IMG/VR virus record: IMGVR_UViG_3300044940_000191
Location: 1-37,831 of that record
Length of the DNA stretch: 37,831 nt
Source of the DNA: a virus
Direction: 5' to 3' (one strand)
In this document: positions 1 to 37,831 of the stretch, piece after piece
Position numbering within the stretch: position 1 is the first letter of the stretch
Layout: every line of letters starts with the position of its first letter
Position numbers and translations under genes: made by a program
The notes under the pieces: model-generated
What the model was told of the DNA's origin: nothing
The model's input: the letters and a program-made list of their open reading frames with translations, nothing else
Databases searched by the model: none

Positions 1-150
1 TATCTCTGGGCACCACGGAAGAACTCGCATCAGCAGCGTTCCTTGTTCGCTTGGTGCAAACCAAGACCAGTCATGCTCGACTTCCTCAAATTGCCATTCG
101 TAAATTCTGCCATATCCTTGGCTCACTTTCTTGCCGATCGAACGCACAGA
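1..150. repeat. Left copy of 150-bp terminal overlap (circular junction)
   Basis: These 150 bases recur at the right end (37682-37831) with two mismatches, at 127/37808 and 129/37810. Both fall in one csf3 codon, AAA here (Lys) and GAT there (Asp). Because an open reading frame continues across the join, this is best read as the assembly overlap of a circular or circularly permuted molecule, not a biological terminal repeat. The two mismatches suggest more than one strain in the sample or a local error. Confidence 0.9.
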
Positions 151-579
151 ATCGAGCAATGTTTTGAGGCTTTGCCGCTTACTACCACCAATAAACCAAC
201 ACACTCGATCTACATTGCTTACTTTGTTGGGCAATCGATAGCTCTTTGTCCAACTGTTGCCAGTCGCGACAACTAGCAGTTGATCGTCTCTCAACAATGC
301 CGCATTCTCGACCGCGATTCGCTTGGCGTAGTGCTCATGCCTCACACTTTGCGGTACAAGTATAGGCGCGGAGCAACGAGGTATGCCGTTGACTCCGCCA
401 AACTCACCACGCAAACACGGAAGATGCACCGAACCGATAGGCGGTGCAGGAGCATTGCTATTGATTCGCTGTGCAATTCCATGACGCAGTACAATCTCAC
501 GCTCTAGCAGCGAATCGAGGTACGGCGCATCACCCGCAAGCGGACTTGATAGCACAGCGGTAACTTTCCAATTACTCAT
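1..579 (-). CDS. csf3: Csf3 (type IV Cas5-like), N-terminal 193 codons; continues at 37681
   Basis: This is the Cas5-like subunit expected to cap the crRNA-5' end of a type IV ribonucleoprotein. The frame is open from ATG (577-579) to the contig edge and, if the ends are joined, continues from 37681 to a stop at 37589, giving 223 aa. The start overlaps the csf2 stop (ATGAGTAA). Visible traits are an N-terminal RAMP-like strand (WKVTAVLSSPLAGD), a central Pro/Cys-rich part, and a glycine-rich segment near residues 147-158 (IGKKVSQGYGRI) typical of RAMP proteins. The family call rests strongly on gene order between Csf2 and the CysH-like gene. Cas5-like proteins are poorly conserved, so sequence alone would be weak. 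Confidence 0.8.
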   Translation of the reverse strand, partial: MSNWKVTAVLSSPLAGDAPYLDSLLEREIVLRHGIAQRINSNAPAPPIGSVHLPCLRGEFGGVNGIPRCSAPILVPQSVRHEHYAKRIAVENAALLRDDQLLVVATGNSWTKSYRLPNKVSNVDRVCWFIGGSKRQSLKTLLDSVRSIGKKVSQGYGRIYEWQFEEVEHDWSWFAPSEQGTLLMRVLPWCPEI

Positions 580-1486
580 CGGCTATCAACTCCTTTTGTT
601 TCGCCTTGGACAGCTTCTTTTCTTTCGCGGCTGCCGCCTTGGTAAAACAATCTTCGAGCCATGCAATTGCATGATCCTTGACGCTATCGACGTGATCGAC
701 ATACGCACCGACGATTGCATCGTCGTCAACTTGGTCGATCAACGTAAGTTGCAATCGACCGTGACCAAGCCGTGCGTTGCCTCCGATCGTGCCGCCGTTG
801 GCTTGCCACAATCGCAACGACAACAGCAAGCAACCCAATTCTATTTCGTTGACATGCTTCAGGACAAAACCATGATGGAACAACGCTCCGCGCGTAACCG
901 CTTGACCGCTGTAAATCATCAGGTTGCTTGCGTCCTGGATGTCGTCGCGTTCGCGACTCAGACCGGTTTTTTTTGCATCTCCGCGAGTGTATTGATACCC
1001 GCTTAGAAAACGCTCACTACTCAATAGTCGCTTGCGTGGTATGTGACCAAGTGTCTTTTCTAAGCTGGCTCGGTTTTCCTCGCAAATCAACGTACCACGC
1101 CAAACGTCCAGCGAACCGGCTAGGATCTGATCTGGCAATGATCCACCGCATAAGCGGATTATTGGCCAATACTCGTGCATCTCTGCAATGCGACGAGTGT
1201 TTTCGTGGGCGTTGCTCATGGTGAGATTGCCGCCGTGCAAGAGAAAATTCAATTGCAACAACGACAACTTGCCACGCAAGCCGTAGCGATCGATCAACCA
1301 CAGCGCCATCGGTTCTCGGACGCAACGATGACGCAACGCGTTACCGCTGAGATATGGCACGTACATGATGCCTTTCTCGGTATGCACTGGTTCGCGTGCA
1401 ACGATTCCTTCGTTGCCTGCGGTCCCGCTCATGTGTGTGATTGGCGAAACGGCTTCGCTAATGCACTGGATTGTATACGTCTTCAT
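572..1486 (-). CDS. csf2: Csf2 (type IV Cas7-like backbone subunit)
   Basis: Predicted Cas7-family subunit that would form the helical filament along guide RNA, 304 aa. The N-terminus shows a RAMP-style strand followed by SPITHMSGTAGNEG (residues 14-27) and a motif YLSGNALRH (45-53) like those of Csf2 proteins; a glycine-rich loop GGNARLGHGR lies at 235-244. The C-terminus is Lys-rich. I chose the ATG at 1486 because it overlaps the cas11 stop (ATGA) and has GGAGA eight bases upstream. A frame opening at 1570 would only add residues inside cas11. The frame ends in an 8-nt overlap with csf3, consistent with translational coupling and fixed stoichiometry within one transcript. Confidence 0.88.
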   Translation of the reverse strand: MKTYTIQCISEAVSPITHMSGTAGNEGIVAREPVHTEKGIMYVPYLSGNALRHRCVREPMALWLIDRYGLRGKLSLLQLNFLLHGGNLTMSNAHENTRRIAEMHEYWPIIRLCGGSLPDQILAGSLDVWRGTLICEENRASLEKTLGHIPRKRLLSSERFLSGYQYTRGDAKKTGLSRERDDIQDASNLMIYSGQAVTRGALFHHGFVLKHVNEIELGCLLLSLRLWQANGGTIGGNARLGHGRLQLTLIDQVDDDAIVGAYVDHVDSVKDHAIAWLEDCFTKAAAAKEKKLSKAKQKELIADE

Positions 1487-1944
1487 TGGTGTTCTCCAAT
1501 CGCTTGTTTGTGGTCGCGCCTTGCGCAAACCAACACGGGAATCAAATGCGTGACGAGATATTGTAGCCAATCTTGACGCTCGTTCTCCGGTAATCTTTGG
1601 AGCATGTCGATGGCGTCGGTAAGACGTTCGCTTGCTACTGCTTTGCTTGCGTCGGCTTTGATCGACTCGAGAACATGCTGAACGAACAAATCAATGTCTC
1701 CACCGACGGTTTTGGCGTAGCCGCTTTGGATCGCGGCCGCGATTTTGTCCCACATCGTCATGCGGTCCAACGACTCGCCAAACACGGCTGGCAAGGCTGC
1801 GCAGAATTGTATCGCTAACGCTTTTGCGTAGCTCTCATACCATTCGTGCTTTTCTTCGTGCGGATCAATCAAACCAGCCAGGCGTTGTCGCAGCTGATCT
1901 GTGCTTAGCGTGCGGTTCTGGTTGGGTAACTGCTGGGTACTCAT
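1483..1944 (-). CDS. cas11: Cas11-like small subunit of the type IV-B complex
   Basis: A 153-aa, mostly helical, soluble protein with no membrane segment or metal motif, placed between csf1 and csf2 exactly where type IV-B loci carry the small subunit (Cas11). Its family role is to line the inner belly of the RNP filament. I recognise no diagnostic motif, so the call is from position, size and predicted helicity. The ATG at 1944 has GAGG nine bases upstream. The first 80 nt overlap the end of csf1 in another frame, unusually long for this genome, but no later Met lies near the csf1 stop. The stop overlaps the csf2 start as ATGA. Confidence 0.72.
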   Translation of the reverse strand: MSTQQLPNQNRTLSTDQLRQRLAGLIDPHEEKHEWYESYAKALAIQFCAALPAVFGESLDRMTMWDKIAAAIQSGYAKTVGGDIDLFVQHVLESIKADASKAVASERLTDAIDMLQRLPENERQDWLQYLVTHLIPVLVCARRDHKQAIGEHQ

Positions 1945-2671
1945 CGAGGCATTCCTCTTTTGCTGGACACAACCAAACCGCCAATCGCGTGAGCGGTTCG
2001 GAAAAACAATCTAGCCACGCTGCTAGGACTTCTTCACTTTCAAAATGCTCTACAATTCGCATCTGCGATTGTGGTGTCATCGCTTCTTTCATCGCAGGCT
2101 TGCCTGTGGCCGCCGCGATCATTTTACATAATTCGATTCGCTCAATTAACTGCGTGGGACGATACGTTATTACCTCGCCTTCGAGAGTGACCGTTACACG
2201 GTCGCGACTTAAATTTACAACGGCACGATAAAGCAAGTGCTTTTGGCCGCTGTCGCTGAGGCAAATACAAAACGGAGGATCTGGCGGATTGATGCACGCC
2301 TCTAGTAACTGAGCACGATGTGCTTTAGTGCATGCCTTGCGATCTGTTGCTGTGATAATCCACGAATAACCTCGTGTCTTTTGGTTGCTCTTGCGTGTGC
2401 CGTCGATCAATTCCAAATCAATTCCCTCTTGCATGGCATCCACGCATCCGGGGCAAACCCAATCACTTAACGTGACGGTGTCCAATCCGGTGAACGATGG
2501 TTTAACAATCTCTTTTGCGGGGTGAATCGGTTCGCACGATCCACCGCAATAAAAACACGTCTCTGTACCGCTAGGACCAACCCCAGCGAAAAGCTGCGTC
2601 GCCGTCCACGGCCGTTTACCGTTCGCTCCGACCATGCTTACCGGATGGGGAGTCAGGTTTTTGATTTTCAT
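1865..2671 (-). CDS. csf1: Csf1 (type IV large-subunit-like, zinc-finger)
   Basis: Signature protein of type IV CRISPR-Cas systems, thought to act as the large (Cas8-like) subunit; 268 aa. A four-Cys zinc site is clear: C39-x2-C42 (CFYCGG) and C73-x2-C76 (WVCPGC), separated by a segment with VKPSFTG, matching the Csf1 layout as I know it. Further Cys residues cluster at 114-137 and 222-241. The start at 2671 is set by AAGGAGA seven bases upstream; the frame extends to 2920 but only through a repeated leader. The N-terminus MKIKNLTPHPV resembles the start of small phage proteins of unknown role, so a fusion or convergent start is possible. First gene of the Cas operon. Confidence 0.82.
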   Translation of the reverse strand: MKIKNLTPHPVSMVGANGKRPWTATQLFAGVGPSGTETCFYCGGSCEPIHPAKEIVKPSFTGLDTVTLSDWVCPGCVDAMQEGIDLELIDGTRKSNQKTRGYSWIITATDRKACTKAHRAQLLEACINPPDPPFCICLSDSGQKHLLYRAVVNLSRDRVTVTLEGEVITYRPTQLIERIELCKMIAAATGKPAMKEAMTPQSQMRIVEHFESEEVLAAWLDCFSEPLTRLAVWLCPAKEECLDEYPAVTQPEPHAKHRSAATTPGWFD

Positions 2672-2674
2672 TTT

Positions 2675-3033: not shown

Positions 3034-3138
3034 TGTCTCCTTTGCGAGGCGGTCCTCGCACGAATGCCGCCTTGGGACGGCCAGCGCTGGCACCCCCAGC
3101 GCTGGGGCATTAGCACCGGCAAAGCCGACGCCCCTCTG
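3034..3138 (-). repeat. Leader repeat copy 2, upstream of the Cys-rich gene
   Basis: Second copy of the element at 2675-2777, with the same block order. The hairpin next to the Shine-Dalgarno is perfect here (GCGAGG / CCTCGC, 3044-3059), while copy 1 needs G-T pairs. Confidence 0.75.
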
Positions 3139-7849: not shown

Positions 7850-8506
7850 CTATTCGGCCATTTTGTCGTACAGTGCTTCGAAAAAGTTGGATTGCCTTAG
7901 CTTTTTCATAATTTCTCGCAGGATTTGCGAGATTCGCGATTCGGCAAGCCCGAGGACGGTGGCCACGCTTTTCTGCGAGGCCTCTTGGTAGTAGATCAGA
8001 TACAGCACGGTTTGCTCGAGCAGGCTCAGGCCCCGCGTGGCCTCGCGAAAGGCATCGGCTTCGGCGATCGTGCAGCGATGGGGCTTGGCTCGTGGTAGTC
8101 GCTCCTCGTCGAGCTGGCACAATTGCGGCGGCTCTGGATAGGGCACTCCGGCAGCCTCGAGCTCCTCGTCGGTAGGCGGATGCTGGAGCTGCTGCGTGAG
8201 GTAGTCGATTGCCGATTGTCGTTTCTTAGATTTGCGGCGTAAGTGTCGCGAGAGGAAATCGAGCTCGCGAATCGCGGTGAGCATTTCGCTGTGGCAGCAC
8301 CGGGCGATCCAAGTCGTGAGCGTGCCGCGTGCGGGATCGTGGCTGCGGATCGCTCGCAATAGACCGACCTGGGCAGCGCTCTCGATATGATCGTGATCTA
8401 ATCTGTCGCATCGACTGGATAGATTGGCAGCCAGGCGCTGGGCCAGAGAGATGTATTTCGCAGCGAGTTCGGACTCTCGCTGCAGCTCGCTTTGTTTCGG
8501 TCTCAT
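7850..8506 (-). CDS. RNA polymerase sigma factor, FliA/sigma28-like
   Basis: A 218-aa sigma-70-family protein. Region 2 (about 38-84) has IESAAQVGLLRAIRSHDPARG and WIARCCHSEMLTAIRELD, the usual core-binding and -10-reading helices. A short region 3 follows (PTDEELEAAG near 111-120), and region 4 (about 158-204) ends in the helix-turn-helix SVATVLGLAESRISQILREIMKKL. There is no region 1.1, as in group 3 factors. It would redirect host RNA polymerase to phage promoters. The twin element at 30466 and 35380 has a GATAA core like a sigma28 -10 box and is a plausible target. Confidence 0.88.
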   Translation of the reverse strand: MRPKQSELQRESELAAKYISLAQRLAANLSSRCDRLDHDHIESAAQVGLLRAIRSHDPARGTLTTWIARCCHSEMLTAIRELDFLSRHLRRKSKKRQSAIDYLTQQLQHPPTDEELEAAGVPYPEPPQLCQLDEERLPRAKPHRCTIAEADAFREATRGLSLLEQTVLYLIYYQEASQKSVATVLGLAESRISQILREIMKKLRQSNFFEALYDKMAE

Positions 8507-9002: not shown

Positions 9003-10078
9003 GCTGTGACCGGTTCCTTTGGTAATGGTGGGCATGGGGGTAACTGTTTGCGGAGCTTGTGCCAGTCGTAGCCTCGCTCCTCGGCGAAGTGTCGCCCAAT
9101 GCCTCGGTAGTAGGCGGCCTCGTCGCGAGCATGCGCCTTGGCCGATCGCACGAATTGCCTCACCTGGTGCAATCCCTCGAGCAGCACGCCCGCACACGCA
9201 ACCTGCCAAATGTGCTCTCGCTCCTCGCGTTGCCGCGCTTTCGACCGGATCGATTCCGCGATCATGCGAGCTCCCTGCGCAATGTCGCGAAGTTGCTCGG
9301 CGGTGATGTTCCCGAAAGGTGTTTCGCCAACATCGTCGACGACGACGACTGACCGCTCGATGGGCTGCTCAGTCGCTTCGGAAATCGCGTGCTCTGTCGG
9401 AGTCGTCGGAGTCGTCGGAGATAACGGATTATCGGATTTATCGGATATAAGGAGAGGCTCGCCGATGTTGCATGCAGCGCTGCTATAGGCGCTGCTATCA
9501 GCGCTGCTATAGGCGCTGCTATAGGCGCTGCTATCAGCGCTGCTATAGGCGCTGCTATAGGCGCTGCTATAGGCGCTGCTATCCTCGTTGCATACAACAT
9601 CGGGTGCCAAAGCACTGCTCTGAGGAGCAATTTTCGCGTCGGATTCGACCACGAAAAACGGCTTGGCCTTTGGGCTTCTGGCGAGGATGTTGACAACCCG
9701 CATCTGGATCTCGATGAGCATGCCTGCATTCTGCCCTCGAGCGTTTCTGACGGTGGTGCGAGTGATGATCCCAGCCTCCTCGAGGCGAGCCAGTGCACGG
9801 CCCACGGCATTGGGGTGGCATTTGAGTCGCTCGTGCTCGGCTAGCTCTTTCTTGGTACCGATCCACTGGATGCCCGAGCAGCCCATCTCGCTGACTGAGG
9901 GGCTGCCAGCAAATACGGCCAGCATGCCAGCGAGCTCGTGCAGGAGCTCGCCCGGCTGAGCACCGATCTGCTCGGCCGCAAGCTGCATCTTGCGAGCGCG
10001 ATCGGCCCGAGCTTTGCGTATCGCTTCGGATTCGGCCTCGAGCGACTCTAAGCCTAGTGTGAGTTGTTGGAATGTCAT
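8999..10078 (-). CDS. Replication initiator-like protein with winged helix and iteron-encoding linker
   Basis: A 359-aa protein resembling phage lambda-O-style initiators in layout. A winged-helix domain covers about 70-125 (TKKELAEHERLKC, ALARLEEAGIITRTTV), followed by a low-complexity linker SSAYSSAYSSAD repeated nine times and a C-terminal domain rich in charged helices that could contact a helicase loader. The linker repeat is the translation of a 12-bp tandem array, so the origin may lie inside the gene, as in lambda. No helicase or polymerase gene is visible, so host replication enzymes would be recruited. AAAGGA lies six bases upstream of the ATG. Confidence 0.7.
   Translation of the reverse strand: MTFQQLTLGLESLEAESEAIRKARADRARKMQLAAEQIGAQPGELLHELAGMLAVFAGSPSVSEMGCSGIQWIGTKKELAEHERLKCHPNAVGRALARLEEAGIITRTTVRNARGQNAGMLIEIQMRVVNILARSPKAKPFFVVESDAKIAPQSSALAPDVVCNEDSSAYSSAYSSAYSSADSSAYSSAYSSADSSAYSSAACNIGEPLLISDKSDNPLSPTTPTTPTEHAISEATEQPIERSVVVVDDVGETPFGNITAEQLRDIAQGARMIAESIRSKARQREEREHIWQVACAGVLLEGLHQVRQFVRSAKAHARDEAAYYRGIGRHFAEERGYDWHKLRKQLPPCPPLPKEPVTA
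9396..9453. repeat. Short tandem repeats and AT-rich block beside iterons
   Basis: GTCGGAGTC repeated about three times, then a run with TTATCGGAT-type repeats (near 9421-9450) that is the most AT-rich part of the gene. Beside the iterons, this is where an origin's unwinding region would be expected. Confidence 0.5.
9477..9584. repeat. Nine tandem 12-bp repeats (candidate origin iterons)
   Basis: Units of GCGCTGCTATAG or GCGCTGCTATCA in direct tandem with no spacer; the last unit ends differently. They are in frame and encode SSAY/SSAD in the overlapping minus-strand gene. The variant unit recurs at positions 2 and 5. Arrays like this inside an initiator gene are typical of lambdoid origins. 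Confidence 0.85.
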
Positions 10079-28092: not shown

Positions 28093-30465
28093 CTACGCTC
28101 GGCCTCGGACAAAGCCTCGGAAATCGAGGGCTTTGGCTCCGACGTAGTGCCGAACCGTCACATTGAGACCAAATCGACCACCGGTCAATTGCTCGGTCGT
28201 GACGATTGGCACGCGGCCAGCCCCCTCGAGGAATGTGACCTCGATGGTGTGGGCCTCGCTCGACACCAGAATCCAGTTGGTGGGCGATCCTGAAAGTGCC
28301 GTACGAGTGACCGGATCGAGCATGCCGTTTTGGAGGCGTGCTTCGCTCACCGGTTTGATGCGATACCGAGAGAATACGTTCGCGCTACCGGCTCCACCAT
28401 CGACCATGACCATGTTGCTCTCGAGCAGTTGCACAGCCAGATCTTGCAGAGCAGGTGGCACGAGCAAGTGGGTTGCTTGGAGATTGAGCGAGGCCTCCCC
28501 ATCGCGTCGCAATCCCAGCGTTGCGATCGCTTCGCTCAGCGTGGCACGCGCCAAAGCCTTACCCGTGCCGAGGTCGGAGACGTCGGTGGTGTTAAATAGC
28601 GCTCGACCCGTTACGGCGAGGTTCGCATTGGCGAGCAGTACCGCCGCGACGACGTTGGGACGCATGCGACCAGCGGCTAAACCGAAATCGCGAGGCGTCT
28701 GAGCGAGGCGACCAAAGTTGTCGCTCATCAAATCGGCTTCATCGATTGGGTACTGTCGGCTGAAGCGATCGACCTTGACCTTTTCGCTGACCGCTGAGCG
28801 GCGCGCGTAATCGGCTTCGCCTCCAGGCGGGTGTAGAGAAAGATCGCCCGCCGCTTCCATGCGCGTGCGATCATGTTCCTCAAGGTCTGGATTTTCCGCT
28901 TCTTGCGTCCAGCCAAGAGAAAAGTCGGAGATCTCGGCATACGATGCGAGCAGTCGTGCTCCGATCGTCGCGCCGAACAATTGCGACACGGCCCCCGAAC
29001 CAAATGCTGCGTGCAACATATCGATTCGGTTGCTTGGCACCATTGCCCCCGTGCTGGCCAGTGCACAGCGAGCGGCCTCGAGCATCGACAGATCGCGAAA
29101 CTCGTGCGCGTGGTCCATGATGCGTTGTCGGTTGGTATCGTTGATACCGGCCTGGAGCCACTGCGGCATGCGATGCCGTACCGTGGGAGCGTTTAAGCTC
29201 GGCGAGTCGAGTGCCACACCGCATCGCAACAGAAGACCTGCTTGCAAGCTCTCCATCGTACCCCGCTGCGCGCGGCTGGTCGAGTGGATCGCTGGTCCGT
29301 GCGGTCGGTTGTTACGAGCCGCCTCGAGCTCTTGGTGTCGGCGTGCCTCTAGCTCGCAGCGATCGGTGTCCCATCCATGTTGGATGGCATAAGCGGCGAG
29401 CAAAACATTGCGGCCTCCGATGTTGACCTCGGGATTACCGAATCGTGCGCAGAGCTGATTGATTTGATTGGTGCGAGCGGTTTCCTCGGCGAACGTCGCT
29501 CGCAGATCCTCGAGCACAGTGGCCCGCGTCGATTGCGAACGGCTGGTTGCACCGGTGTTAGATCGAGTGTTTGTGTTTTGCGCGTGGAGCGAGTCACCGT
29601 CGGCACGCGATGCGGCAGCGGTGGGGGCTGGCTCGGTTGTTTGTGAGCCATCGCCAGCGTCAGAGCTGTCCCCCGAGCTAGCGGCCATTTGTGCATCGTA
29701 TTGGGCTTTGAGTGCGGCCTTAGCGGCATCGCTAAGAGTCGCGATATCAAGTCCGAGCGAAGAAACCCAGGAGTCGAAATCCATTGCGAAAGTCCCTGTA
29801 GAAAGTTGGGCGGAAAGGGTGAGCTTGGGCACGTCCATATCGCCCGGCTCGGTCAAAATGGCGATGTGTTTCAGTCGCGAGCGACTGACATACAGCAGAG
29901 GTCCGACAAAGGTCTGGCCGTTGGCTTGCAGCTCCTCCCCTTCGCGGATCATGCGATGTTCGATGAGGATCAATCCGATCGACGTTTTCCAAGGGAATGT
30001 TTGCCCTTCCTCAGCAGAGAGAGACGAAACAATTTCGCGTGCATCGTCGTTGTCGAGGCTGAACAGCCCCGACGCGAGAAACTGCGTGTTGTTATGTCCC
30101 ACGGAAAAGCAATGTCCGACCGGTCTTGATGGATCGTGATCGCGATTGATGGGCGTATCGGGTGCAGCCTCGATACCTGTCACATCGACCACGACAGCAC
30201 CTTGATAGCCCGATGCCATCCGCAATTGCGGATACATCACGCCACCGGTGTAGACCACTTGGCTCGTGAATTTCGCCGGCGCAGTAGACTGAGCATCATC
30301 GTTCGCGGCAGCAGCGTGCAGCGTAAGACGAGCACCGCCAGCCAGGCATACCGTAGGGGCGGCAGCCGTAGCGGATAGAGTCGCGTAGAGCGAATCCTCA
30401 GCGATGATGGGAGCGATAAGGCTCCTAGCACGTTGGCGAGATGGGATGAGTCGGCGATTGATCAT
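28093..30465 (-). CDS. Fused prohead protease and major capsid protein
   Basis: A 790-aa protein. The N-terminal part (about 60-215) looks like a prohead serine protease: INRDHDPSRPVGH with His110 and PWKTSIGLIL with Ser162, both in the arrangement of HK97/Mu-type proteases. A low-complexity helical linker (about 235-390, Ala/Ser/Thr-rich) could be the scaffold, and the remainder (about 400-790) looks like a Mu gpT-type capsid (ATHLLVPPALQDLAVQLL, SPTNWILVSS). Protease, scaffold and capsid in one chain would be self-processed. ATG 30465 has no Shine-Dalgarno and follows a repeated promoter-like element. Confidence 0.82.
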   Translation of the reverse strand: MINRRLIPSRQRARSLIAPIIAEDSLYATLSATAAAPTVCLAGGARLTLHAAAANDDAQSTAPAKFTSQVVYTGGVMYPQLRMASGYQGAVVVDVTGIEAAPDTPINRDHDPSRPVGHCFSVGHNNTQFLASGLFSLDNDDAREIVSSLSAEEGQTFPWKTSIGLILIEHRMIREGEELQANGQTFVGPLLYVSRSRLKHIAILTEPGDMDVPKLTLSAQLSTGTFAMDFDSWVSSLGLDIATLSDAAKAALKAQYDAQMAASSGDSSDAGDGSQTTEPAPTAAASRADGDSLHAQNTNTRSNTGATSRSQSTRATVLEDLRATFAEETARTNQINQLCARFGNPEVNIGGRNVLLAAYAIQHGWDTDRCELEARRHQELEAARNNRPHGPAIHSTSRAQRGTMESLQAGLLLRCGVALDSPSLNAPTVRHRMPQWLQAGINDTNRQRIMDHAHEFRDLSMLEAARCALASTGAMVPSNRIDMLHAAFGSGAVSQLFGATIGARLLASYAEISDFSLGWTQEAENPDLEEHDRTRMEAAGDLSLHPPGGEADYARRSAVSEKVKVDRFSRQYPIDEADLMSDNFGRLAQTPRDFGLAAGRMRPNVVAAVLLANANLAVTGRALFNTTDVSDLGTGKALARATLSEAIATLGLRRDGEASLNLQATHLLVPPALQDLAVQLLESNMVMVDGGAGSANVFSRYRIKPVSEARLQNGMLDPVTRTALSGSPTNWILVSSEAHTIEVTFLEGAGRVPIVTTEQLTGGRFGLNVTVRHYVGAKALDFRGFVRGRA

Positions 30466-30517
30466 GCACCGACGTTATCACACGATTTAGAAATCGCAGA
30501 ATTTTAGATACCAATAA
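30466..30517 (-). promoter_or_regulatory. Promoter-like element, copy 1 (before protease-capsid)
   Basis: Shared with 35380-35432. In the transcript direction: TTATTGGTATCTAAAA, then TCTGCGATTTC, a 7-nt variable spacer, then TGTGATAACGTCGGTGC directly before ATG. GATAAC is a -10-like core eight bases before ATG, so transcripts would be leaderless or nearly so; no Shine-Dalgarno is present. Probably a late promoter. Confidence 0.7.
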
Positions 30518-30581
30518 CGGAGCGATCGATTCGGCGGGCGTAGAGTGTCTGGCCTGGTTGTCGGGTGAGTGATACGTTCAT
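30504..30581 (-). CDS. Possible 25-aa leader peptide
   Basis: ATG at 30581 to TAA at 30504, basic peptide (SLTRQPGQTLYARRIDRS). It starts by the stop of the 132-aa gene and ends inside the promoter-like element. There is no good Shine-Dalgarno and expression is doubtful. Confidence 0.25.
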   Translation of the reverse strand: MNVSLTRQPGQTLYARRIDRSVIGI

Positions 30582-33377: not shown

Positions 33378-35152
33378 GCGTCGGCCTCCTCGTATTCGTC
33401 GGACTCGTCGAGATCGTCGTTGTCCGCGTCCTCCTCGGCGAGATCCTCCGCGATCTCATCGAGCAACGCGTCAATGGTCTTTTGCTTGAGCCCCAGCGAG
33501 CTTAAAAACAGTGCGGTGCGTGTGCGTGTCCACTCGCCCGCAGCAAAGTGATGGATCGCGTCGTCAATCGCTTTGGTGGCGTTATGCATCTGGCGTCGCG
33601 ACATGTCGCGAAACTCGCCGGTGGGCTGATCGAACTCGCTCGCGACCTCGGCCGGCGCATTATCGGAGGAGGTTGTCGCCATGCGAGGGACTGCACCAGG
33701 TGCGGCACTTGGTAATGAGGATGGGGGCTGTAATAAGTTGCCCATGGGCCCACCAAGCTCGGCTAGTTTGCGACGTCGCAGGGCTTGGCTAATGAGCTGG
33801 TTATAATGCTCCTCGGGATCGATGTTTTGCTCGAGGAGATACTGCTCCTCGGTTTTGAGCCCTGCATCGAGCATCGTCACGGCTGCCGATGCCTCCTTGA
33901 TTGGATCGACGTGCTTAGGTGGATTCCAACGCCAGTAGCGTGCCACCGGTATGTCGAGCATCGCGCTAGGTGAAATCGGCACATAGCGGGAGAGCATGAG
34001 CGCCTCGTCGAGCCACCATTCAAAAATGCGATCGAGACACTCCAGCTCCCACTGCGATCGCTCCACGTCAATCGCCTCGTAGTACGTCTGATGATCGAGG
34101 CGGCCCGAGCTGTAGTTGTATTTGGAGGAGTCGGCCAGAGCTTTGTTGGCGGGCATGTGGACGCAACGAGCGATCTCGTTGAGGATCGCATTGCGAAATA
34201 CTTCGTAGGTGGTGGTCGGCTGCTCGGGCTTAAACTGATTGAGCTTCCAGCCTTTGGGCAGACTCATCATCATGTTACGCATGATCGGCAGCGTGAGTGG
34301 CTCTTCCCCCAGATCCTCGGCTCCTAGCTCGTCGTCGAAGCTGGTCGCCATCGTCTCCATCACACCGGCGAGATTAGCGGCGGTTTCGCTGGCTGCAATC
34401 GTGGCTAGCGTCCAACGTCGCAAAAAGGCAAAGAGTGGCAGAGCCGGTGTGATCTCAGGGATACCACGCACTTGGCCAGGTCGCTCGACCCGAAACATGT
34501 GAATAATATCATCGGGTGCTATGTCGTCTTTGTCCCAGGCGCGTAGATTCCAGATGTCACCTGGGTGCGATTTGAGCATGTGGTAATTGATCGGGTAGCC
34601 GTATTTGTCAAACTCGATCCCGTCAACTTGGCCATCGATCCCATCCATAAAACCCGGTGTCGAGATTTGATCCGCTTCGATGAGGCGAACATCCAGCTGC
34701 ACCGGTGTACGCAATCGCTTGTTGTACGACTTGAGCAAGAATACCTCGCCATCGACTACCTTCGACAGCCGGGCGGTGCGTAGCTTGGCGGCGAGGTTTA
34801 CCGATCGCGACCAGGCTCGCCACTCTCGCTCGATCCATCGATCGAGATCTTTATCTCCGGTGTTGAGTTGCAAGCATGGACCGGTGCTGATCGTATCGTT
34901 GGCCAGTGTGTGGCAGATGCCTTTGGCAAATGAGTTGGCCTGGTGGCATTCGTAGCGAGCTCGCGAACGCAGTCGGCGGCGGACCTCGATCGAGTTCGCT
35001 GCTGCGGCGGAGTCGTGATCGGCCCAAGCCCAATGGCGGCGATTTTCCTCGGTATCTTGGGCGGCGTCGTATTTTGCATTCAGTCGGCCTCGAGATTTCG
35101 AGGCCTGCGGTTGCGAGGCGGCGAGTGGTCGGCCAAATTGATCGACGAGCAT
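33374..35152 (-). CDS. Portal protein (lambda family)
   Basis: A 592-aa portal through which DNA enters the head. Features of lambda-type portals: RRRLRSRARYECHQANSFAK near 60-80, VDGEVFLLK, the EADQIS and GIEFDKYGYPINY motifs, and FRVERPGQVRGIPEITPAL (about 223-241). The C-terminal 50 residues are highly acidic. ATG 35152 shares a base with the previous stop (TAATG). Starts the structural block together with the 75-aa gene before it. Confidence 0.93.
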   Translation of the reverse strand: MLVDQFGRPLAASQPQASKSRGRLNAKYDAAQDTEENRRHWAWADHDSAAAANSIEVRRRLRSRARYECHQANSFAKGICHTLANDTISTGPCLQLNTGDKDLDRWIEREWRAWSRSVNLAAKLRTARLSKVVDGEVFLLKSYNKRLRTPVQLDVRLIEADQISTPGFMDGIDGQVDGIEFDKYGYPINYHMLKSHPGDIWNLRAWDKDDIAPDDIIHMFRVERPGQVRGIPEITPALPLFAFLRRWTLATIAASETAANLAGVMETMATSFDDELGAEDLGEEPLTLPIMRNMMMSLPKGWKLNQFKPEQPTTTYEVFRNAILNEIARCVHMPANKALADSSKYNYSSGRLDHQTYYEAIDVERSQWELECLDRIFEWWLDEALMLSRYVPISPSAMLDIPVARYWRWNPPKHVDPIKEASAAVTMLDAGLKTEEQYLLEQNIDPEEHYNQLISQALRRRKLAELGGPMGNLLQPPSSLPSAAPGAVPRMATTSSDNAPAEVASEFDQPTGEFRDMSRRQMHNATKAIDDAIHHFAAGEWTRTRTALFLSSLGLKQKTIDALLDEIAEDLAEEDADNDDLDESDEYEEADA

Positions 35153-35379
35153 TATTGCCTCCGCTCTTCGCCGACGGCGCTGCCGGGCACAAATCGCGTC
35201 AGCAGGACGCCTCGCGATCGCTTGCGAGCGATGCGGTTGGCGTCAGCTTGTTGGAGTGCAGCGATCTGATCCGCAGCAGATCGCGAGGTGACGGTAAGAC
35301 CGTCAGTAGAGACCGATTGCGGCCCGGCAGAGTTGCTCAGAATCGAATCGGCATTGGGAGTGGGGTCTGCATTGCTCAT
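35152..35379 (-). CDS. Small protein preceding portal
   Basis: A 75-aa protein with a polar N-terminus and a helix (SAADQIAALQQADANRIARK). Position suggests a small head-joining protein like lambda gpW, but similarity is weak. ATG 35379 lies directly after the second promoter-like element, without a Shine-Dalgarno. Confidence 0.6.
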   Translation of the reverse strand: MSNADPTPNADSILSNSAGPQSVSTDGLTVTSRSAADQIAALQQADANRIARKRSRGVLLTRFVPGSAVGEERRQ

Positions 35380-35432
35380 GCACCGACGTTATCACAGCAG
35401 CCCCGAAATCGCAGATTTTTAGATACCAATAA
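35380..35432 (-). promoter_or_regulatory. Promoter-like element, copy 2 (before portal operon)
   Basis: Matches copy 1 (30466-30517) in both conserved blocks; the variable spacer is 8 nt here against 7 nt. ATG again follows TGTGATAACGTCGGTGC immediately. Likely promoter of the portal-fibre operon. Confidence 0.7.
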
Positions 35433-35446
35433 AGGTTTCCAACGAG

Positions 35447-35654: not shown

Positions 35655-35936
35655 TCAATCGTTGAGTCGAGTTTCGTGTACAACAATTCGGATAAACTCG
35701 AGCCACGCAGACTCGTCGTCACTGGTGAGCAGCCACGTTACTGACGACACAATCCAATCGTAATCGTCGTTATCTTGCCCGCGGACGTTCATTGGTCCGC
35801 TCGGTGGTGACAAGCTGTCGCCAACACGCGGCAGCGGGTCATCCCAATGGGGAAACTCTAGCCACAGCGATAGATCGTCGGTAAAAATCGGAGGCTCTAG
35901 GTTTGCGCCAACCCACTCAAAAATAACACGTGCCAT
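35655..35936 (-). CDS. Hypothetical cassette protein, Trp-rich
   Basis: A 93-aa acidic protein with many Trp residues (FEWVGANLEPP, SLWLEFPHWDD, AWLEFIRIVV). Family not recognised. ATG 35936 lies just after the 83-bp repeat; the longer frame back to 36065 only reads through the repeat. May be paired with the HTH gene that follows it. Confidence 0.55.
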   Translation of the reverse strand: MARVIFEWVGANLEPPIFTDDLSLWLEFPHWDDPLPRVGDSLSPPSGPMNVRGQDNDDYDWIVSSVTWLLTSDDESAWLEFIRIVVHETRLND

Positions 35937-35938
35937 GT

Positions 35939-36021
35939 ACCACACCAATAAACCCGAGCCCGCCCTCGAGTCTTTTCGAAATGGAAAATCACTCGGAGCG
36001 GGCCGAGTCATTGGTAGCGTT
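35939..36021. repeat. 83-bp palindromic repeat, copy A
   Basis: Matches copy B (36653-36735) except for one base. Nearly palindromic: arms CCAATRA and TCATTGG at the outside, CCGAGCCCG... and ...CGGGCCGAG inside, with an AT-richer centre. The stop codon of the upstream small gene (TAA in CATAACGC) touches one end and an ATG follows the other. Confidence 0.88.
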
Positions 36022-36316
36022 ATGACGACCTGGTGAGTCGTGTCATAATTACGTAAACGCAACACTCACGAAACCAAAACTGTGAACCATACTCGCCGTT
36101 GTCATCGAGCGTAGGGATTTGCATGACTAGCTTTGCAAGTTCTTCAGACCTTTCTAGTAGGTTGCCATAAACAAACAGATCGCAATGCGTGTTGTCGATA
36201 GACGTTTCACACCGCACGTCGTCTCCAATCATCAAAGACAATCCAGAGGCGATGATCGTCGCATAATTGCCGTCTGAACAGCAGTCAAGCAATTCACCAA
36301 TAATCTGAGGTGTCAT
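36020..36316 (-). CDS. Hypothetical cassette protein
   Basis: A 98-aa protein of unknown family (QIIGELLDCCSDGNYATIIA, HCDLFVYGNLLERSEELAKL). Its TAA stop lies at the edge of repeat copy A. No strong Shine-Dalgarno. Lies between two repeat copies, as in a mobile gene cassette. Confidence 0.55.
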   Translation of the reverse strand: MTPQIIGELLDCCSDGNYATIIASGLSLMIGDDVRCETSIDNTHCDLFVYGNLLERSEELAKLVMQIPTLDDNGEYGSQFWFRECCVYVIMTRLTRSS

Positions 36317-36398: not shown

Positions 36399-36650
36399 TT
36401 AGGTGGATTCCACAACAATCGAAATCTTTACCATCTTGGCACCACGCTTCTTTATCCAACGCTTCTTTTTTTCGAAATCCCACTGCGGGTCGTAACCTAG
36501 TCGTGCCATGCTAAATTCTGGCATCCTCTCACACGCATCATCGTATTCTCGGATTGCTCTCAACCACGACTGCTTTGCTTTCCACGCAATTGACGCAGTC
36601 ACAACCCCCGAATCCGGCCACAGCAAACCGAAGTATCCAGAATAACGCAT
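36399..36650 (-). CDS. Hypothetical cassette protein, basic C-terminus
   Basis: An 83-aa protein (WLRAIREYDDACERMPEFSM, then EKKKRWIKKRGAKMVK). Family not recognised. ATG 36650 follows repeat copy B; extending the frame to 36755 only adds translated repeat. Confidence 0.5.
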   Translation of the reverse strand: MRYSGYFGLLWPDSGVVTASIAWKAKQSWLRAIREYDDACERMPEFSMARLGYDPQWDFEKKKRWIKKRGAKMVKISIVVEST

Positions 36651-36652
36651 AG

Positions 36653-36735
36653 ACCACACCAATGAACCCGAGCCCGCCCTCGAGTCTTTTCGAAATGGAA
36701 AATCACTCGGAGCGGGCCGAGTCATTGGTAGCGTT
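36653..36735. repeat. 83-bp palindromic repeat, copy B
   Basis: Second copy, one mismatch to copy A (G for A at base 12). On the minus strand AACGC opens the repeat and GCGTT follows shortly after its end, which resembles the outer pair of an integron attC site, though the spacing is asymmetric. Confidence 0.88.
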
Positions 36736-36814
36736 CTAGCTGCCGGTTGAACCACCCCCGCCGGATCATTGGGCTGGCACCCTCCCCGGCAGGGGCGAGA
36801 ATTGTTACTGCTGA

Positions 36815-36893: not shown

Positions 36894-37595
36894 TTAAGGT
36901 CTTCTGGCACGCATTCTCGCCAGCACGTCGCCGTAATACTCGTGTTCCCACTCCGAGCGACCATTCCCACCGCCTGTATGTCCGCCTATGGCGTCCACTC
37001 GCAGCTTCTCGCGTTTCCATCTCCCTTGTCCGAGCATCGCGTAGTTCGGGTGTGTCGGTAAATCATGTATTGCCAACAAAGCAAAGACGTCTTGCTCACT
37101 AAGCCATCCTATCGGTCGGCAGACACTCTCGGTTGCTAGTCCATGTATTCGCATGGACATTTTTCGAATACCTGATTCGCTGGCCCTAACGCCAACAATT
37201 CGCCGATGGGTACCAGTCGCTTCAACGGCTGGGCGGAAGCAGCGTTCATTGCTTACGGTTGGATCATTCCAGAGCTTCGCTGGAAATGTCGGCTCGAAAT
37301 AATCGACATCAAATCGCCTTAAAAAGGCGTCTCGCACGTCTTCGCAACCTGGGCACTCCGCCCCTTCGGGACGCACCCAAACCAAGGGCACCCAAGGCGT
37401 CCAAGTCGCAACCAACCAAGCGGTAACAACCGAGTCTTTGCCCCACGAAACCGAGCAATAGCATCGCTCTTGCGCAAACCCTCGGACTTCGTTCACTGAT
37501 CGTTCGATGTTGACTCGATGCAGTTTGTCACTTTCCAAATACGATTGCCACAATTGCAAATCCTCTTTGGTGTGGCGATGACTTGGAATTAACAT
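36894..37595 (-). CDS. cysH-like: CysH-like (PAPS reductase-fold) partner of the type IV-B locus
   Basis: A 233-aa PP-loop protein. ATP-pyrophosphatase loop SVSWGKDS at 48-55 (SxGKDS type), a CPGC pair at 81-84, GVRASES at 135-141 and the usual C-terminal pattern RPIGWLSEQDV...LPTHPNY (160-185). It lacks the ECGLH-type end of sulfate-assimilation reductases, so ordinary sulfate reduction is unlikely. CysH-like genes are the constant neighbours of type IV-B Cas genes; their reaction there is unknown. ATG 37595 overlaps the csf3 stop by 7 nt (ATGTTAA), so it is the last gene of the same operon. Confidence 0.85.
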   Translation of the reverse strand: MLIPSHRHTKEDLQLWQSYLESDKLHRVNIERSVNEVRGFAQERCYCSVSWGKDSVVTAWLVATWTPWVPLVWVRPEGAECPGCEDVRDAFLRRFDVDYFEPTFPAKLWNDPTVSNERCFRPAVEATGTHRRIVGVRASESGIRKMSMRIHGLATESVCRPIGWLSEQDVFALLAIHDLPTHPNYAMLGQGRWKREKLRVDAIGGHTGGGNGRSEWEHEYYGDVLARMRARRP

Positions 37596-37831
37596 GGCAC
37601 CGCAATCTCCATGATCCTATCAGGATGCCAGTACGGAGGTGCTACGCCACCGCACCAACGCTTCCATCCGATAAGATTGTGTATCTCTGGGCACCACGGA
37701 AGAACTCGCATCAGCAGCGTTCCTTGTTCGCTTGGTGCAAACCAAGACCAGTCATGCTCGACTTCCTCAAATTGCCATTCGTAAATTCTGCCATATCCTT
37801 GGCTCACATCCTTGCCGATCGAACGCACAGA
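37589..37831 (-). CDS. csf3: Csf3 C-terminal part (joins 1-579 across the circle)
   Basis: The last 80 codons of csf3, with no start in this part. The first 50 repeat the terminal overlap with one residue change (IGKDVS here, IGKKVS at the other end); the last 30 (from HNLIGWKRWCGG to EIAVPC) are present only here. Joined at 37681/1 they make a 223-aa protein with a stop at 37589-37591. Confidence 0.8.
   Translation of the reverse strand, partial: SVRSIGKDVSQGYGRIYEWQFEEVEHDWSWFAPSEQGTLLMRVLPWCPEIHNLIGWKRWCGGVAPPYWHPDRIMEIAVPC
37682..37831. repeat. Right copy of 150-bp terminal overlap
   Basis: Same 150 bases as 1-150 with two mismatches. Removing one copy gives a circle of 37,681 bp. Confidence 0.9.

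Follow-up and report, generated by a model that had tools for sequence, protein, structure and literature searches.

A phage type IV-B locus and the exchange of its CysH-like protein independently of the RNP genes

Type IV-B systems consist of an RNP, usually without an array and a nuclease, and the CysH-like protein CasCysH is regarded as key to their function (PMC7937560, PMC8175902). According to a 2021 review, CasCysH lacks the catalytic cysteine, carries a PP-type motif and clusters apart from housekeeping CysH, and it was proposed that the protein may AMPylate some target that the RNP binds (PMC8175902). The IV-B RNP structure contains heterogeneous RNA and no CysH (PMC7937560). IV-B loci with CysH adjoining csf3 have been described in archaeal viruses (PMC10848311), and type IV systems were found earlier in lytic phages (cited by PMC10848311).

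The phage locus and its cysH-like gene

The window analysed here is an entire virus contig of 37,831 bases. Its first and last 150 bases (1-150 and 37682-37831) are identical at 148 of 150 positions, which makes it very likely that the contig is a circular or complete phage genome, and terminase, portal and head protein are among its phage genes. The two differences within this terminal direct repeat (127/129 vs 37808/37810) alter one csf3 residue (K or D).

All genes of the locus lie on the minus strand. Upstream of csf3 and cysH, in the same direction and with strong PADLOC matches, are csf1 (cas8-like, 1865..2674; PDLC01574, 1e-61), whose frame is open to 2920 with a likely start at ATG 2674, cas11 (1483..1944; PDLC01573, 4e-25), and csf2 (cas7, 572..1486; PDLC01572, 1e-80), with a start at ATG 1486 set by alignment. 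The csf3 gene (cas5; PADLOC typeIV_Cas5) is divided by the contig join into an N-terminal part (1..579, of which 1-150 is the redundant contig end) and a C-terminal part (37589..37831) that runs on at 151-579. Because the contig ends repeat, it is complete when read over the join, from 579 to 151 and then from 37831 to 37589, giving 223 aa. The cysH-like gene (36894..37595) starts with ATG and encodes 233 aa with a predicted N-type ATP-PPase fold. Given csf1, cas11, csf2 and csf3 beside the cysH-like gene, the phage carries a type IV-B locus, of which the cysH-like gene product is the CasCysH. IV-B membership and the loss of the CasCysH catalytic cysteine are not new, being mostly published (PMC8175902).

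The csf3 stop and the cysH start overlap by 7 nt (ATGTTAA, 37589..37595), and this overlap recurs among diverse phages (L075, L087, L098, L102, L103 and others); many relatives carry another gene between the two. A preliminary description of this DNA had the protein fused by overlap to csf3; the overlap is real, but these are two separate genes. No array-like direct repeats were seen in the window, Cas6, Cas1 and Cas2 were not found by PADLOC among its larger ORFs, and the single weak DinG match in that search falls on the terminase.

Several other repeats were noted. At 30457-30520 and 35371-35435 there are two pairs of repeats, 26 and 31 nt long and equally spaced. They lie upstream of two genes, that of the head protein and the one at 35152-35379, and could be shared promoters for a phage sigma factor (7850-8506). 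A 103-nt element is duplicated (90%) downstream of cysH (35934-36036 and 36648-36750) and a 71-nt element (87%) just upstream of csf1 (2694-2764 and 3053-3123), while about nine copies of a twelve-base unit (AGGCGCTGCTAT-like) form a tandem repeat at 9451-9603.

CasCysH and the RNP genes in viral relatives

Viral contigs were scanned with the window protein and one relative as queries and the pattern WGKDSVV, giving 50 loci (L-numbers), all of them, like the other related viral sequences, metagenomic assemblies. The csf3 gene lies alongside cysH in 49 of these, the exception being 125 nt from a contig end. Since WGKDSVV was the search pattern, the conservation of the PP-loop in this set was discounted, and an unbiased csf2-driven scan was run, which gave 29 loci. 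CasCysH was present within the same ~12 kb in 24 of them, with SWGKDS as the PP-loop in 23/24 and SGGKDS in one (L076). As the two scans agree, the association of CasCysH with the csf genes is not due to chance. The tight coupling to csf3 claimed in the preliminary description holds as a genetic tie to the RNP genes, but not as a universal csf3 overlap.

The genes that separate csf3 and cysH are varied. In four loci (L008:4303-5427, L012:4270-5445, L092:8439-9758 and L097:3408-4535) there is a second PP-loop protein, with a DUF3440 match in L008, L092 and L097; in L008 and L012 it adjoins a ParB-like ORF, and together they resemble the IbrA/IbrB pair. Elsewhere the position is occupied by an HD-domain gene (L003:5507-6025, L028:5516-6025), a cupin gene (L006:5532-5996) or a possibly Cas6-like gene with a weak match (L015:5502-6008).

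In the tree, viral CasCysH form a clade with 100/100 support that includes the window protein, and canonical CysH forms a separate clade (99/92). A single genome of Corynebacterium striatum encodes all three types: CysH (TMSMENTVL and ECGLHE), CysD (FSGGKDSVVV) and CasCysH (TSWGKDSVVV, without ECGLH). A tblastn search of phage and plasmid collections with the window CasCysH returned no match, which is put down to divergence because the Corynebacterium CasCysH query did reach the plasmid copies. With the window csf3 as query, L075 and L076 alone were returned.

L075 and L076 are the closest relatives of the window's RNP, with a strongly diverged CysH. Identities to the window in csf2, csf3 and cysH are 85, 80 and 42% for L075 and 79, 71 and 39% for L076, and the pair L025-L097 is similar (84, 88 and 39%). 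The corresponding values in unexchanged pairs are, for example, 98, 97 and 96% (L039-L041) and 69, 61 and 72% (L017-L018). DNA likeness between the window and L075 extends through csf3 and about 50 nt into cysH, and is then gone save for a short stretch at the gene end; the replacement in the window clade seems to span nearly the whole gene. A tree of csf2 and csf3 groups WIN+L075+L076 (WIN being the window), L025+L097 and L100+L101, each at 100/100, and the cysH tree breaks all three. An AU test on cysH, covering the first two groups, which were named from the csf tree after the identity values were known, rejects WIN+L075+L076 (p 2.2e-5) and L025+L097 (p 1.7e-4). Faster evolution of CysH was considered as a cause of its low identity and set aside, since in most unexchanged pairs the identity of CysH is close to that of csf3 or higher, and the RNP grouping does not survive the AU test. 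Taken together, the identities and trees show that CasCysH has repeatedly been exchanged independently of the RNP, and that csf1-cas11-csf2-csf3 travel together. Such an exchange seems to be new; a literature search of partial coverage found no report of it.

A sharp break within the gene was observed in a clade other than the window's, a divergent branch of CasCysH represented by seven contigs (the L048 group: L048, L049, L051, L052, L053, L106 and L108), the flanking DNA of which is mostly 92-99% identical. Their CysH proteins are near-identical up to roughly codon 66, a little beyond the PP-loop, where a sharp replacement begins that gives four alleles (A-D), with similarity resuming in the next gene, cas6. 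Two of the alleles include a weak Coq4-like ORF within the exchanged stretch. Misassembly is unlikely, because allele A was found in two and allele B in three metagenomes. The cas6 gene of this group follows csf2-csf3-cysH (L048:7244-7825, TIGR02807 E 8e-31; also L049, L051, L052, L053 and L106). No CRISPR array was seen in 12 kb of these phages, and arrays of the host may therefore be what Cas6 acts on.

Candidate functions of CasCysH

The AlphaFold2 model of the window CasCysH, built from 30 sequences, has a pLDDT of 95.2 and supports a predicted N-type ATP pyrophosphatase fold. If matches within 1 Z are treated as tied, the solved chains that it most resembles are CysD at Z 15.8, APS reductase from plants at 15.6, FAD synthase at 14.9, and PAPS/APS reductases at 14-15. 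GMP synthase, LarE and TtuA score lower, and NcsA is also matched. A sequence profile search placed CysD first (1ZUN, 8.5e-13) and CysH second. Together, the profile and structural matches support a putative ATP pyrophosphatase-type nucleotide site, with catalytic activity likewise putative. The PP-loop is intact, as the preliminary description had it: SVSWGKDS at residues 48-55 (37431..37454) is a W variant of the SxGKDS that is invariant in alignments.

That this is an ordinary phage auxiliary reductase of sulfate assimilation (PAPS/APS reductase) can be given next to no credence. Beyond the shared fold, the names of its matches point that way: Pfam PF01507 (PAPS_reduct) at the edge of the cut-off (E 1e-4) and two phage 'PAPS reductase' families in PHROG (phrog_2302 at 3e-22). 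However, the catalytic cysteine is missing, which already contradicts this account. As the preliminary description noted, the C-terminal Cys box is missing: there is no ECGxH-type box in the protein and no Cys in its last 45 residues, and ECGxH is absent from every CasCysH compared; by its sequence, the window CasCysH is without the cysteine needed for sulfonucleotide reduction. The second motif D(T/S)G (VDTG of CysD) is also missing, no D-T-G being present in CasCysH of the window clade. The protein lies outside the canonical CysH clade, is tied to csf genes, and has no match in NCBIfam, hence to neither a reductase nor a DndC family model; its neighbours are csf and phage genes, which gives no indication of a DndC protein. 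The preliminary description's view that it is not a sulfate-assimilation reductase is borne out.

Also very improbable is an enzyme resembling the tRNA/RNA thiolases of the PP-loop type (TtcA, TtuA, NcsA), with an Fe-S cluster on CPGC and other cysteines. The structural matches do include TtuA, NcsA and LarE, and Cys84 and Cys159 are present in many members (16/23 and 18/23 of the aligned CasCysH), but no set of three cysteines is conserved, Cys119 being rare and Cys81 found in 1/23, so that conserved cluster-binding cysteines of this type were not found. The earlier suggestion that the CPGC pair (residues 81-84, 37344..37355) holds a metal or cluster fails at the same positions: the first Cys occurs in the window sequence alone, NPDC being the usual form in other CasCysH, and 23/47 and 16/23 CasCysH have the second. 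That CasCysH serves the RNP as an adaptor which binds nucleotide but has lost catalysis is somewhat easier to imagine and still quite unlikely. Such an adaptor would fit the Trp in the PP-loop and the lost second motif, and to our knowledge no activity of CasCysH is known. Against it, K53, D54, S55, G135, R137, E140 and R144 show little or no variation among highly divergent CasCysH; GxRxxESxxR and other residues are likewise near-invariant in the alignments.

An account that leaves the enzyme activity the same in all alleles is that CasCysH has been exchanged to escape an inhibitor, a protein of the host or of a competing phage that binds to it. The alleles retain the catalytic motifs (GxRxxES..R, LP..Y) and differ in their surfaces, and the window clade shows whole-gene replacement, making this possible, if doubtful. 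We know of no inhibitor of CasCysH, and the border just after the PP-loop in the L048 group, together with the co-exchanged Coq4-like ORF, fits a functional cassette better. The explanation we favour, and consider rather probable, is that CasCysH is an ATP-activating or AMP-transferring protein acting with the Csf RNP, the exchangeable part of which sets specificity. From its fold and motif it would bind ATP, and together with the Csf RNP it would transfer AMP to a substrate or otherwise activate it. A constant ATP-binding part (in the L048 group the first ~66 residues, with the PP-loop) would be joined to an exchangeable part setting substrate or partner specificity, and selection would favour change in that specificity, as happens in self/non-self or arms-race systems. 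The replacement of Gly by Trp in the PP-loop speaks against this explanation, since it might alter or abolish catalysis, and so does the location of the sharp break in a clade other than the window's. A role in modifying RNA or a nucleotide, as the preliminary description proposed, is a reasonable candidate function and was put forward before for CasCysH (PMC8175902).

Exchange under a near-constant RNP indicates that selection diversifies CasCysH, not the RNP. Taken further, CasCysH might be the specificity module of IV-B systems, its constant ATP-binding half coupled to an exchangeable half that chooses the nucleic acid or protein to be adenylated or marked. This extension is speculative and in our estimate unlikely; if true, co-circulating phages with near-identical RNPs would differ in their mark and could tell self from competitors. 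The natural series of four alleles on one backbone, in seven contigs, permits a direct test of the exchanged part.

Comparison with known systems

The window protein is like the published IV-B CasCysH (PMC8175902; locus type PMC7937560) in neighbouring csf1-cas11-csf2-csf3, in its PP-type motif, in the absence of the catalytic cysteine and in standing apart from housekeeping CysH. The four plasmid IV-B copies read here (Rhodococcus, Xylanimonas) carry FSGGKDS and FDSG, unlike the viral copies, which have no D(T/S)G; as far as these sequences go, SWGKDS in viral CasCysH versus SGGKDS in the four plasmid copies is a new distinction. With the CysH-like protein of Fuxivirus (PMC10848311) it shares a virus-borne IV-B locus and a cysH beside csf3, but Fuxivirus is an archaeal virus with a mini-CRISPR array, and no array was found in the window.

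The DUF3440-type phage PAPS-reductase-like protein (L008, L012, L092 and L097) belongs to the PP-loop family and occurs in the same neighbourhoods as CasCysH, but it is a separate family (SGGKDST) that co-occurs with CasCysH and does not replace it. The fold and the GxR..S..R motif are shared with CysH (PAPS/APS reductase; 1SUR, 2O8V, 6VPU), from which CasCysH differs in having no ECGxH and in its intact KDS PP-loop, which CysH lacks. CysD (ATP sulfurylase subunit 2, 1ZUN), of which AMP-forming chemistry is a feature, is both the best profile match and the top structural match and has the SxGKDS PP-loop in common (SIGKDS/SGGKDS in CysD), although the second motif of CasCysH differs and identity over the aligned core is 17%.
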